Shown here: in pieces, positions 2,298 through 13,273 of the stretch
Layout: each line of letters begins with the position of its first letter
Numbering within the stretch: position 1 is the stretch's first letter
Source: Ignatzschineria rhizosphaerae
GTDB lineage: Bacteria > Pseudomonadota > Gammaproteobacteria > Cardiobacteriales > Wohlfahrtiimonadaceae
Direction: 5' to 3'
Assembly (NCBI RefSeq): GCF_022655595.1
Contig: NZ_CP093379.1
Coordinates: 802,501 to 866,500, forward strand
DNA: 64,000 bases
Program-made: the position numbers and the translations under genes
Notes under the pieces: generated by a model
The model's input: only the letters and a program-made list of their open reading frames with translations
The model's database searches: none
Told to the model about the DNA's origin: nothing

Positions 2298-3677
2298 ATG
2301 TTAGAAGAACTACGGATCTTATCACCGACTGCGATTTTAGGGTATGGCTTTCCATTAGCGTCTTTTGAAAAGGGAATGGCAAAAAAGCCTCATGTAATAG
2401 CAATGGATGCAGGATCAACAGATCCAGGACCATATTATCTAGGTAGCGGCATCTCGTTTACAGATAATAGAGCCGTGAAGCGAGATCTTGAAATTATGAT
2501 TCCTGCAGCACAAGAAGCTAAGATTCCTTTAATTATTGGCTCAGCAGGTGGAGCTGGGGGAAAATCTCATGTGGATTTAACACTTGGGCTTATTCGAGAA
2601 ATTATTCAAGAGAAGCAATTGTCAGCATTAAAAATAGCTATTATTAATAGTGAAATATCTCCTGTGTTTTTGTTAAAAGCGTATAGAGAGGGGAAAATTC
2701 ACCCACTTAATGCCGACAATAAAGTGACAGAAACTTTGATAAAAGAGAGTAGCGCTATTGTTGGGCAAATGGGAGAGGGGCCTTTTATTGAAGCGCTAAA
2801 TCACCATGCAGATATTATTTTGGCAGGGAGAGCTTATGACCCATCTGTATTTGCGGCATTAGCGATTAAAGAGGGCTTTGATAAGGGATTGGCACTTCAT
2901 TTAGGGAAAATTTTAGAATGTGCTGCCATCGCTGCGTTACCAGGAAGTGGTAGCGACTCGATGTTAGGTATTTTAAGAAAAGATCATTTTGATGTAGAGC
3001 CTTTAGCTGAGAATCGGGTTTGTACAACACTATCTGTCGCAGCCCATACATTATATGAAAAGTCCGATCCTTATCACTTGCCAGGTCCTGGTGGGGAGTT
3101 AGATTTAACAGCATGTGAATTTAAACAGCTTGATGCTCGCCGAGTAAGAGTGTCTGGCACTAAATTTATTCCTACTAAAAAATACTTTATTAAATTAGAA
3201 GGCGCTAGAAAAATTGGCTATAGAACTATTGCGATTGCAGGTGTGACGGACCCTATTATGATCGCCAACATTGACTCTATTTTAATAGGAGTTAAAGAGC
3301 GTGTTTTTGATAATTTCCAAGATTCAAATTTTCAAGAGTTTTATCTAAATTTTAATGTATATGGCAAAAATGGCATTGCTTTATTACCTGAAATCTCTAG
3401 TGATCAAGTGTTGCCTGATGAGATTGGGATAGTAATCGAAGCTGTTGCGGCAACAGAAGAGGAAGCGAGTGCTATTTGTAGTTTTGCAAGAAGTACCGCT
3501 TTACATTTTGGTTATGAAGGGCGCATTTCTACCGCGGGGAATTTGGCATTTCCTTTTTCACCATCAGATGCAAATATGGGGGAGGTCTATGAGTTCTCCA
3601 TTTATCATCTGTTAGAAGTTGAATCTGAAGTAGCCTTATTTCCTATTCAATATGTCATTATAGGGGAGATGGAATGA
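2298..3677 (+). CDS. AtuA-family (DUF1446) acyclic-terpene-utilisation-like protein
   Basis: A 459-residue protein with a strong ribosome site (AAGGAGGAG, 6 bases before ATG). It has the features of the AtuA/DUF1446 family: an N-terminal ILGYGFP start, DAGSTDPGPYYLGSG, IIGSAGGAGG and the ILAGRAYDPSVFAA block. Founding members were described in acyclic terpene and branched acid catabolism, but the chemical reaction is not established. The next gene overlaps it by 4 bp (ATGA), so translation is coupled, and that gene carries the partner DUF4387 domain, which in some proteins is fused to AtuA. With the downstream hydratase and TRAP genes it probably belongs to an organic-acid pathway; the substrate is unknown. 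Confidence 0.8.
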   Translation: MLEELRILSPTAILGYGFPLASFEKGMAKKPHVIAMDAGSTDPGPYYLGSGISFTDNRAVKRDLEIMIPAAQEAKIPLIIGSAGGAGGKSHVDLTLGLIREIIQEKQLSALKIAIINSEISPVFLLKAYREGKIHPLNADNKVTETLIKESSAIVGQMGEGPFIEALNHHADIILAGRAYDPSVFAALAIKEGFDKGLALHLGKILECAAIAALPGSGSDSMLGILRKDHFDVEPLAENRVCTTLSVAAHTLYEKSDPYHLPGPGGELDLTACEFKQLDARRVRVSGTKFIPTKKYFIKLEGARKIGYRTIAIAGVTDPIMIANIDSILIGVKERVFDNFQDSNFQEFYLNFNVYGKNGIALLPEISSDQVLPDEIGIVIEAVAATEEEASAICSFARSTALHFGYEGRISTAGNLAFPFSPSDANMGEVYEFSIYHLLEVESEVALFPIQYVIIGEME

Positions 3678-8803: not shown

Positions 8804-9003
8804 ATCTCTATTTTTCAAAGATGAGTGGATCATAAAAATAGTAGGCAGTATAAAAATATTTAAATACAAAAATAAATATTTAGTAAATATTTTTATTTAA
8901 ATATTAACTTGAGTATTTTCTAGGTAGTTTAGTTGATGAAGTAAATAATTTAAGGTAGCTTATAACAGTAACTTAATAGTGAAATCAATATAAAGGGGTT
9001 ATG

Positions 9004-9444
9004 ATGATCAACTTAAAAACAATATCAGCAGTTGCGTTTGCAAGTGTTTTTTTAGCAGCTTGTGCGACAGATCTAAATAAATACGAAGAAGTAATGGTTG
9101 GCAAAACATGGGTAACCACAAATGCCATTGACCAAAAAACACGTAGTATCGGACCAGAAGATAAGCGCGTGAGCATGTATTATGGTACTGCTAAATATTA
9201 TCGCAATGGAACTTTTGTGATGTTTACGCCCGAAGGCGAGCAAAAAATGCAAGGTGATTGGAGCATTAGTGAAGATGGCGCAACCCGTACTTTAGTCTCT
9301 AAAGATAAAGATGGTAAGGTGCTCTTTACTCGTACAGTACAAAATACTTCAGTAACACCAACAGATTATGTCTATCGTATTTTCCCATCAGAGCGTCATC
9401 AGGATCAATATATAGATATTCTTCATAAACCTATTAAAAAGTAA
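9004..9444 (+). CDS. DUF4822-like lipoprotein
   Basis: A 146-residue lipoprotein. Signal peptide with lipobox LAAC (Cys about residue 20 from this start). ATG at 9004 is preferred over the adjacent ATG at 9001 because the AAAGGGG ribosome site then has proper spacing. The mature domain (GKTWVTTNAIDQ..., RNGTFVMFTPEGEQKMQGDWSI) resembles the small beta-rich lipocalin-like DUF4822 domain. Monocistronic, with its own terminator. No defined function. Confidence 0.65.
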   Translation: MINLKTISAVAFASVFLAACATDLNKYEEVMVGKTWVTTNAIDQKTRSIGPEDKRVSMYYGTAKYYRNGTFVMFTPEGEQKMQGDWSISEDGATRTLVSKDKDGKVLFTRTVQNTSVTPTDYVYRIFPSERHQDQYIDILHKPIKK

Positions 9445-9491: not shown

Positions 9492-9520
9492 AGCCTTAGG
9501 AGTGATTCTAAGGCTTTTTT
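9492..9520 (+). terminator. Rho-independent terminator
   Basis: AGCCTTAG/CTAAGGCT stem, 8-base loop, then TTTTT. It ends the lipoprotein gene; the last bases overlap the stop codon region of the opposing ArsR gene. Confidence 0.8.
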
Positions 9521-10233
9521 GATGCAATAATTTTAGCGTAATCAATATTAAAAAACTTTAGTAATGCTGATTTTCCTAAATGAGTCCAGATGACTTCGCG
9601 AGTTTGTGGGAAACGCTCGATCCATTTTTTCTGCTCAAAGAAAATAAGTAATTGTGTACCTAAAGCCCCTGCTAGATGAAATTTTCGCTCACTCCAATCT
9701 AAACAATTATGAGATACAATTGAGGGTGTTAAAAGCGCTTTTTTTTGAAATTCTTTTAATGAAAATCCCATACTTTGAAGGTGCTGATAGCCTTTAGCGG
9801 TTAGTTGGTATTGTTCATCTCCCTCTATCCACCTATTTTTTAAAAACTGGTGCATGATTTCAACAGCAATTGTTCCCGCAAGATGATTATAACAACTTCG
9901 AGAGAGTTGTAGGTTTAGAGGAGTTGAGCTTTTGATGGAACCAATAACGGTATCTGTTAGCGTTAAATTCATTAATACTTCTAAGGTATGCGCGATCTCT
10001 TCATTAGCAAGGCGATAGTAGCGAAAACGTCCTTGCTTGATTAACGTGATAAAACCTTGTGATTCAAGCTTTGCAAGATGCGAACTTGTTGTTGAGGCTG
10101 AAACTTCTGCCACACTTGAAAGCTCTGTTGCCGTATAGGCTCTACCATCCATCAAACTGCATAATATTTTGGCACGAGAGGGTTCTGCAATCATTGATGC
10201 CATTGCTGAGAGGTGATGGTGAAGATCAGTCAT
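9508..10233 (-). CDS. ArsR-family winged-helix regulator
   Basis: A 241-residue protein, longer than classical ArsR. Residues ~8-90 are an ArsR winged helix: EPSRAKILCSLMDGRAYTA, ELSSVAEVSASTTSSHLAKLE (recognition helix), then QGRFRYYRL (wing). The remaining ~150 residues hold a second all-alpha region ending in WTHLGKSALLKFF. It has no metal-binding CxC pair, so it probably senses an organic ligand. Divergent from the P450-like/ABM gene pair with 75 bp between starts that contain two dyads, so it most likely represses that pair and itself. Confidence 0.82.
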   Translation of the reverse strand: MTDLHHHLSAMASMIAEPSRAKILCSLMDGRAYTATELSSVAEVSASTTSSHLAKLESQGFITLIKQGRFRYYRLANEEIAHTLEVLMNLTLTDTVIGSIKSSTPLNLQLSRSCYNHLAGTIAVEIMHQFLKNRWIEGDEQYQLTAKGYQHLQSMGFSLKEFQKKALLTPSIVSHNCLDWSERKFHLAGALGTQLLIFFEQKKWIERFPQTREVIWTHLGKSALLKFFNIDYAKIIASKKP

Positions 10234-10235
10234 AT

Positions 10236-10251
10236 TTCGTTTTCAATCGAA
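10236..10251. promoter_or_regulatory. Dyad, candidate ArsR operator 1
   Basis: TTCG-N8-CGAA inverted repeat immediately upstream of the ArsR start codon in the divergent intergenic region. Confidence 0.35.
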
Positions 10252-10265
10252 GTATTCAAAAAGGA

Positions 10266-10278
10266 TATTGTCACAATA
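10266..10278. promoter_or_regulatory. Perfect dyad, candidate ArsR operator 2
   Basis: TATTGT-C-ACAATA, two 6-base arms around one base, 30 bp before the P450-like start codon. Winged-helix repressors commonly bind such sites across the promoter. Confidence 0.45.
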
Positions 10279-10308
10279 GCATAATTACTTTATTCAACGA
10301 GGTTATTT

Positions 10309-11232
10309 ATGAGTGATGAGATGCAAATTGAGAGTATTTATCAAGTGAAGAAAATCTTGCTAGATTCCCATTATCAAGTAAGACCTATTGATCAAAAGGT
10401 ACCAAAATTATTGCAAGGATTATTGATAGGTGAGCTATTTGCTAAACTTGTGAGAATGAATGAGGGGGAATATCATCGTCTCTTAAAACGTCATATGACA
10501 TTAACTTTAATGGCATTTTCTCAAGAATATATGGCAAAGATTACTAAAGAGGTGATTACTACTACCGATGTAAGGCTCGATTCACCAGAAGCATTAACAA
10601 AGGCAATTGCTACTTGGCCAATTTTAGTAGTAGCCAAGCTGATAGGGATAAAAGTTGTTGATCCGGAGCTTTTTTTAACGCAGATTACATTATTTTCAGC
10701 GGCAATTGTTCAGCCTCATGATCAAAAGGTTGTGCTACTAGGTAATGATGCTTTAATAGCATTGTATGAGATGCTTTTACCGGCAAAAGGTCCTTTAAAA
10801 CAGACATTTATGGATGTTTGTGCTGAAAGCTCTTTAATCGATGAAAGTACCGTTAATGATAATTTATTGGGGCTCTTTTTTCAGACTTTAGATGGGACAA
10901 GTGGTTTAATTGCAGCGATGTTAAAGCATTTATTAAGTGAATCTTCGCTTTCTAGTAAAGCCCTTTTAAATTGGAGTTTACAGCACCATGCTCCTATTAA
11001 AAATACTAAAAGGTTTAGAGGCAAAGAGATGCTGATTCTTCCTTTACAATTTAAAGAAAACGCTCTTCCTTTTGGTAGTGGACGACATGAATGTCCGGGG
11101 CAGTTTTGGGCAAAAACAATTGCTATCACCATTGTAGAGTATTTAAGAGCGTTACCTATAGAAAAGTGTTGGCTTTTAAAGAGCCGTTATAAAACATCGC
11201 CTAATGCGCAGGTTTTAGAGTTTTATTCTTAA
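10309..11232 (+). CDS. Short cytochrome P450-like protein
   Basis: A 307-residue protein that carries the P450 haem-loop signature LPFGSGRHECPGQ with the thiolate Cys at residue ~262, and an I-helix-like stretch FFQTLDGTSGLIA. It is about 100 residues shorter than ordinary P450s. The K-helix ExxR motif is not recognisable: the region before P-I-K-N-T-K-R-F reads NWSLQHHA instead of ExxR. The stretch between that segment and the haem loop is also shortened. It may be a minimal haem protein with a changed role (peroxygenase, dehydratase or sensor) rather than a monooxygenase. No ferredoxin gene is adjacent. Co-transcribed with the ABM gene 20 bp downstream. Confidence 0.75.
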   Translation: MSDEMQIESIYQVKKILLDSHYQVRPIDQKVPKLLQGLLIGELFAKLVRMNEGEYHRLLKRHMTLTLMAFSQEYMAKITKEVITTTDVRLDSPEALTKAIATWPILVVAKLIGIKVVDPELFLTQITLFSAAIVQPHDQKVVLLGNDALIALYEMLLPAKGPLKQTFMDVCAESSLIDESTVNDNLLGLFFQTLDGTSGLIAAMLKHLLSESSLSSKALLNWSLQHHAPIKNTKRFRGKEMLILPLQFKENALPFGSGRHECPGQFWAKTIAITIVEYLRALPIEKCWLLKSRYKTSPNAQVLEFYS

Positions 11233-11251
11233 GAGAAGGAGGAGCGTTAAA

Positions 11252-11596
11252 ATGATTGCAGTAATATTTGAATTAAAGACAGATAAGATCCATAAGGCTC
11301 AGTATTTAGCATTAGCGGCTGATTTAAAATCTTACTTAAAAGATATTAGGGGGTTTATCTCTATCGAACGGTTTCAGAGCTTGGTGGCGCCGGATAAGAT
11401 TTTATCGCTCTCTTTTTGGGAGAATGAAGTGGCGATTGAGGCATGGCGAAATTTAGAGGTCCATCGCACTGCTCAGGTAAAAGGGCGAGCCTCTATCTTA
11501 AATTTTTACCGTTTAAGGGTTGCGACTGTTATTCGAGATTATGGTTTAAATGATCGAGAAGAAGCCCCCAAAGATAGTGTGGGATATCATCAATAA
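11252..11596 (+). CDS. Antibiotic biosynthesis monooxygenase (ABM) domain protein
   Basis: A 114-residue ABM-fold protein: N-terminal beta strand MIAVIFELKT, the FISIERFQSL strand and the LSLSFWENEVAIEAWRN stretch with the conserved WxNEVAIxxWR pattern, then HRTAQVKGR. Members are small dimeric cofactor-less monooxygenases or haem-degrading enzymes. Good ribosome site (AGGAGG). It is 20 bp behind the P450-like gene, so the two probably act on one compound under ArsR control. Confidence 0.8.
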   Translation: MIAVIFELKTDKIHKAQYLALAADLKSYLKDIRGFISIERFQSLVAPDKILSLSFWENEVAIEAWRNLEVHRTAQVKGRASILNFYRLRVATVIRDYGLNDREEAPKDSVGYHQ

Positions 11597-12782: not shown

Positions 12783-12850
12783 TAATGGATTTAAGAGGTA
12801 TGTTACGCTGAGGTATCCATAGATATTCATTGAAAGAAAAGGGAGTCAAG

Positions 12851-13273
12851 ATGACAGGAGTAAAGGACGTAGGGCAGGCATTATTATCATGGAATCGCCA
12901 GCATCTTGTTGCCAAGGGAGAGCTAACGACAGCAATGATTGCTGAGCATTTTCATCCCCATTTAACAGTGGTGGCGAATGGGCGTCATTATGAGACGGAT
13001 CTTGCTGGTTATTTGCAATTTTTAAATGGTTTTCGTCAAACAATTGCTTCTATTGATTATGATGTTATGCACAAAGTGAGTGAAGAGAATAAAACAGTGC
13101 TCTGTATGCGTGCAAAAGTATTAAGAGTAGATGGCTCTTTAGATCAATTTGAGGCAATGTTATTGCTTGAATTTAATGATCAAAAGAAAATCACGCTTTG
13201 GCATGAGGTATATGTTGCTATTAAATTAGTGGTTTTGAATAAAAAGTGGTGCTATTTGCTTCACTTTGTATAG
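12851..13273 (+). CDS. SnoaL/NTF2-like protein
   Basis: A 140-residue protein. Start at 12851 because GGGAG lies 6-10 bases before this ATG; the in-frame ATG at 12830 lacks one. The pattern WNRQHLVAKGELTTAMIAEHFHPHLTVVANGRHYE followed by strands ending in ITLWHEVYVAI is that of a small NTF2/SnoaL cone fold (longest run here is split at MIAEHF). No catalytic role can be named. The tail KWCYLLHFV is unusually hydrophobic and may be a readthrough-like extension. Confidence 0.5.
   Translation: MTGVKDVGQALLSWNRQHLVAKGELTTAMIAEHFHPHLTVVANGRHYETDLAGYLQFLNGFRQTIASIDYDVMHKVSEENKTVLCMRAKVLRVDGSLDQFEAMLLLEFNDQKKITLWHEVYVAIKLVVLNKKWCYLLHFV

Follow-up and report, generated by a model that had tools for sequence, protein, structure and literature searches.

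The locus lies in a stretch of 64,000 nucleotides from Ignatzschineria rhizosphaerae (contig NZ_CP093379.1, positions 802,501 to 866,500), referred to here as the window. Three open reading frames were found at the positions given in an earlier note, which had described them as encoding an extended ArsR regulator, a divergently oriented P450-like protein of 307 residues and an ABM protein. The features are as follows.

9508–10233, minus strand: extended ArsR-type repressor, 241 aa (HTH_5, E = 4e-10)
10236–10251, no strand: predicted operator TTCG-N8-CGAA, adjoining the arsR start codon; exact motif present in relatives
10266–10278, no strand: second dyad, TATTGT-C-ACAATA, not conserved
10309–11232, plus strand: P450-fold protein of 307 aa in reduced form, with the Cys loop but without ~55 N-terminal residues, ExxR and meander
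10972–10983, plus strand: codons for W222-S-L-Q225, which stand in the K helix where ExxR has been lost
11071–11100, plus strand: haem-thiolate loop FGSGRHECPG with Cys262; the Cys, the His two residues before it and the Pro-Gly are invariant in 86 homologues
11252–11596, plus strand: ABM-family protein, 114 aa (PF03992, E = 5e-14, above the cut-off)

The divergent gap between the arsR and P450 genes measures 75 bp and contains both dyads that had been reported there, and the stop codon of the P450 gene is separated by 19 bp from the ABM gene, which is preceded by an AGGAGG-type ribosome-binding site. A gene for a DUF4822 protein with a lipoprotein-like start (9001–9444) adjoins the cassette, and a weak SnoaL-like open reading frame (12830–13273; E = 0.016, below the cut-off) lies downstream of it. 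A second ABM-family gene is located elsewhere in the same genome (contig C1, 2242898–2243122). Promoter and terminator scans gave results at chance level, and a search for a link to defence systems returned generic HTH matches only.

The regulator carries an ArsR-type winged helix, as judged from the HTH_5 match and from a match to NF033788 above its cut-off. AlphaFold2 modelled the repressor with a pLDDT of 88, the N-terminal half being SmtB/HlyU-like, and among the matches listed in a fold search only the N-terminal domain was covered, with no counterpart of the C-terminal domain. Residues R112, C114, Y115, H117, A119 and G120 are invariant in 72 relatives of the regulator, and C177, D179, R183 and H186 are 99% conserved in them. 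In the C-terminal half, a C-x2-H ... C-x8-H set is nearly invariant; this pattern in the alignment suggests that C114, H117, C177 and H186 form a possible metal or thiol site.

By its sequence, the 114-aa protein is a member of the ABM family (PF03992, 52.7 bits against a cut-off of 23.1), a homology that is no proof of monooxygenase activity. W65, H71, Y18 and R40 are invariant in 56 ABM relatives. Its nearest solved sequence relative is Bacillus YqjZ (PDB 2go8, E = 5e-6), which, unlike the ABM protein of the window, has no known link to a P450.

The 307-aa protein scored 13.5 bits with Pfam PF00067, against a cut-off of 22.8, and only the Cys loop was matched. A search of the whole genome (one 3.07-Mb contig) with PF00067 gave zero matches, so that annotation by this model would overlook the gene. 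Since Pfam alone is sub-threshold, the case for P450 homology was built on a family profile and on the fold. A profile of 49 sequences, including those of the window and of Wohlfahrtiimonas populi, matched solved P450s with an E value of 4e-44. Structure prediction, which the earlier note had proposed as a check, returned a confident P450 fold (AlphaFold2, pLDDT 93.0, pTM 0.91); all 50 Foldseek matches listed were P450s, and VIA-align against StaP gave a Z score of 27.8 across 295 of the 307 residues. On the strength of the profile and the predicted model, which has the fold of the P450 superfamily, the protein is a P450 by descent.

The ExxR motif of the K helix is near-invariant among P450s, if not absolute. 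The window protein retains the Cys-ligand loop, FGSGRHECPG, in agreement with the pattern FxxGxxxCxG, and W222 and Q225 occupy the positions of the Glu and Arg in the K helix, as anticipated by the earlier note, which had recognised no ExxR. E-x-x-R strings occur at two places only, EYHR at residue 54 and, past the Cys loop, EYLR at residue 277. The meander is missing too: 18 residues separate NTKRF from the Cys loop, compared with 49 in intact homologues, so that about 30 residues between NT[RK]RF and the loop are gone, and the first ~55 residues of the homologues are absent as well. With neither ExxR nor meander, the description of the product as a non-standard haem protein was well chosen. 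Because ExxR stabilises the meander loop (PMC3990721), joint loss of both is structurally coherent.

To place this protein in its family, homologues were collected with one conserved peptide pattern. A contig scan with an alignment yielded 206 relatives, of which 80 were kept, while the same kind of scan with a single protein as query gave no matches; a class-wide profile search mostly reached ordinary P450s and was kept out of the statistics. Homologues from Cupriavidus and Burkholderia and those of the 80 loci, which belong to Burkholderiales, myxobacteria, actinomycetes and others, are mostly proteins of 350–430 aa; at several high-GC loci, noise prevented the gene context from being read. 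The same trio occurs in W. populi, where identities to the window proteins are 44–47% for the P450, 55% for ArsR and 65% for ABM. The search for the trio in other genomes recovered it in several phyla, with order and orientation kept in Wohlfahrtiimonas, Duganella, Pseudoduganella, Aquabacterium, Billgrantia, Corallococcus and a Rhodospirillaceae MAG, in keeping with the proposal of a three-gene unit. Another genome of the genus has the regulator gene together with the beginning of the P450 gene, at the end of a contig. A deletion confined to one strain, which would have made the gene simply truncated, was not what we found: the W. populi P450 shares the reduction and is shorter still than 307 aa, and the family shows graded lengths, and strain-specific truncation was rejected. 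The P450 is present in just 3 of 18 genomes of the taxonomic family and the flanks of the cassette differ between W. populi and the window, and for these reasons the cassette looks mobile or frequently lost. The W. populi DUF4822 homologue lies on a different contig from its cassette. No paper in the literature searched mentions ABM along with both P450 and ExxR, both ArsR and NIPSNAP, or both P450 and Cupriavidus.

Loss of ExxR was then compared with the gene neighbourhood, ABM genes being sought by tblastn within ~4 kb. Among 86 homologues, ExxR was intact in 45 of the 46 without a detectable ABM neighbour and in 9 of the 40 with one (Fisher p = 3e-14, with kinship ignored). The spacing from NTRRF to the Cys loop was 49 in all 45 proteins with intact ExxR and no ABM gene, 37–49 in those with intact ExxR and an ABM gene, and 18–47 in the ExxR-less proteins; loss of ExxR is accompanied by a shortened meander. 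On the tree, ExxR was lost in about five clades, the placement of long branches being unsure: the window with W. populi, a Chloroflexia MAG, Ramlibacter, Cupriavidus/Ralstonia and Oxalobacteraceae. Among the proteins that lack ExxR, only one, from Ramlibacter (L126), had no ABM gene detected nearby. Duganella members appear late-starting too, the N-terminal segment being missing. Several Variovorax loci (L050, L076, L112 and others) have a divergent repressor gene, the dyad and an intact P450 gene, with no ABM gene nearby. The full-length Variovorax and Burkholderia homologues belong to the same P450 family as the window protein, and the Variovorax loci resemble the window in the divergent ArsR gene and the TTCG-N8-CGAA dyad; unlike the window, these homologues have an intact ExxR, a meander segment of the full 49 residues and no ABM neighbour.

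These comparisons bear on whether the protein might be a conventional P450 monooxygenase, able to work without ExxR and meander and served by the ferredoxins of the cell, with the ABM protein acting separately. The retained fold and Cys loop would fit such an enzyme, and there is a precedent in CYP157, whose members lack the canonical ExxR (PMC3599690) and are called functional in PMC3990721. However, CYP157 loses only the R and keeps the E (PMC3599690), whereas the window protein is without E, R, the whole meander and the N-terminus, the two being compared here from published descriptions of CYP157. The window P450 is also linked to ABM and ArsR, unlike CYP157, and the association of ExxR loss with ABM argues against independence of the two proteins. 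We therefore regard an ordinary monooxygenase as unlikely.

We next considered whether the reduced P450 is maintained by selection. Among relatives, dN/dS was 0.11–0.31 for ExxR-less pairs and 0.15–0.23 for intact pairs, indicating purifying selection in pairs of relatives, the nearest relative of the window gene being too distant for an estimate of its own. In 32 ExxR-less proteins, Cys262, the Pro-Gly, H260, R235, R49, M50, H56 and N299 are 100% conserved; R235, H260 and H56 are presumably haem-propionate contacts, as in P450s generally. Thus, the reduced P450 is apparently still under selection, and from its sequence and apo model we infer that it has retained haem binding. A decaying P450 gene, beside which only the repressor and the ABM protein matter, might explain the progressive shortening along the family and the long branches of the window and W. 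populi proteins. It accords poorly with open frames and the same invariant residues in both, with a confident compact model and with an operon position that is the same over large distances, and the low dN/dS of ExxR-less pairs likewise argues against decay, which we consider very improbable. The confident model, the low dN/dS in relatives and the invariant residues also make a pseudogene unlikely.

The earlier note had pointed to two dyads in the divergent gap as candidate sites for the repressor. One of them, TTCG-N8-CGAA, proved to be conserved in relatives, while TATTGT-C-ACAATA is not conserved in the two nearest relatives. Of 46 intergenic regions between ArsR and P450 genes, 41 contain TTCG-N8-CGAA, against 0.05 expected by shuffling, and it also lies upstream of all 14 modules with ACT or NIPSNAP genes that were checked, Tn10 included. 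The bare motif is not distinctive alone, being found at 27 places in the genome, below a reversed-pattern control, with one match expected by chance in the window; the extended form ATTTCG-N8-CGAAGT has a single occurrence in the genome. Since the motif alone is common, the case for an operator is founded on its fixed position across loci.

The same repressor family, ABM family and dyad recur in Tn10, which carries three genes, jemA, jemB and jemC, unrelated to tetracycline resistance (PMC9412624); we infer which letter belongs to which open reading frame from the gene order. The window repressor is 42% identical over 223 residues to the Tn10 winged-HTH protein, with the motifs CYxHLAG and CLDWSER common to both, and the ABM proteins are 48% identical over 99 residues. 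The jem cluster shares TTCG-N8-CGAA with the window; in Tn10 this predicted operator precedes the ABM start codon by about 54 bp (3183–3198 of locus L127, Tn10 on R100). The cluster differs from the window in that an ACT-like protein of 128 aa replaces the P450 and all three genes have the same orientation, in contrast to the divergent layout described here. The window thus has the repressor, the ABM protein and the dyad at the operon promoter of a jem-like module but no ACT-like middle protein; since a P450-like gene fills that slot, we describe it as a sibling or variant and not as a jem operon proper. In the plasmid collection, 878 records contained a relative of the regulator, many of them being Tn10 adjoining tetR(B). 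A genome of the same genus (G001, locus L151) contains 3,654 bp with 100% identity to the Tn10 of R100, the ABM and ACT-like genes among them, so that the Tn10 module and the P450 version coexist in one genome of this genus.

In other modules, the slot of the P450 is filled by an ACT-like gene or by a NIPSNAP gene. The NIPSNAP-ABM modules of Rhodovulum and Burkholderia glumae share the repressor family, the ABM protein and the dyad with the window and differ from it in that NIPSNAP, sometimes with a LysE exporter, replaces the P450; sibling modules or regulator relatives adjoin exporters such as LysE or MFS. The occupation of this slot by small non-P450 proteins, together with the loss of ExxR and meander mainly where an ABM gene is next door, would be expected under the chief rival explanation, in which the P450-like protein is non-enzymatic and binds a small molecule, with or without haem, serving the ABM protein as a carrier, scaffold or activator. 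Such a helper role may, by analogy, parallel a possible role of the ACT-like and NIPSNAP proteins in the siblings. Nevertheless, Cys262 and the expected haem contacts were kept without exception while other conserved parts were lost, and retention of the thiolate is not what one would expect of a pure binder; we consider a helper role possible but not probable.

The interpretation that we prefer, with confidence that is about evenly poised, is that of a self-contained inducible and autoregulated oxidative-detoxification cassette with a reduced haem-thiolate protein. In this cassette, the ArsR-type repressor would occupy TTCG-N8-CGAA in the divergent promoter, shutting off both its own gene and the P450-ABM operon, until a small molecule sensed by its C-terminal domain frees the promoter. 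The ABM enzyme and the P450-derived haem-thiolate protein would then modify the sensed molecule, by oxidative detoxification or scavenging; inducible detoxification or signal degradation had been put forward in the earlier note, and a role of this kind may be envisaged. The P450 would have given up the ExxR/meander network and some of its N-terminus while keeping the haem-thiolate site, probably because the network is no longer required by its partner or by the way in which it acts. The cassette reading is supported by the trio order conserved in several phyla, the operator-like dyad in both the P450 and the sibling modules, the modelled P450 fold, the invariance of Cys262, His260, Arg235 and His56 in the ExxR-less members, the similar dN/dS of ExxR-less and intact pairs, the ABM family common to the window and Tn10, and the exporters near sibling modules or regulator relatives. 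It is weakened by mutagenesis cited in PMC3990721, according to which loss of ExxR and the meander usually ruins P450s. A more speculative proposal, which we also think unlikely to be correct, is that the ABM protein substitutes for a redox partner, docking on the meander-less proximal face or feeding in an oxidised intermediate, to give a ferredoxin-free haem-thiolate/ABM oxygenase; Tn10 and hundreds of resistance plasmids would then carry a P450-free sibling acting on the same chemical class.

Beyond what the earlier note described, these data place the unit within a wider repressor and ABM system that includes the jem genes of Tn10, and reveal that ExxR was lost several times in ABM-linked P450s. 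The family offers a natural series of P450s in which the ExxR/meander core was lost several times under continued selection, making the purpose of that core directly testable, and the jem genes of Tn10, present on several hundred sequenced plasmids, are connected with a defined family of repressors, with a predicted operator and with a candidate oxidative chemistry.
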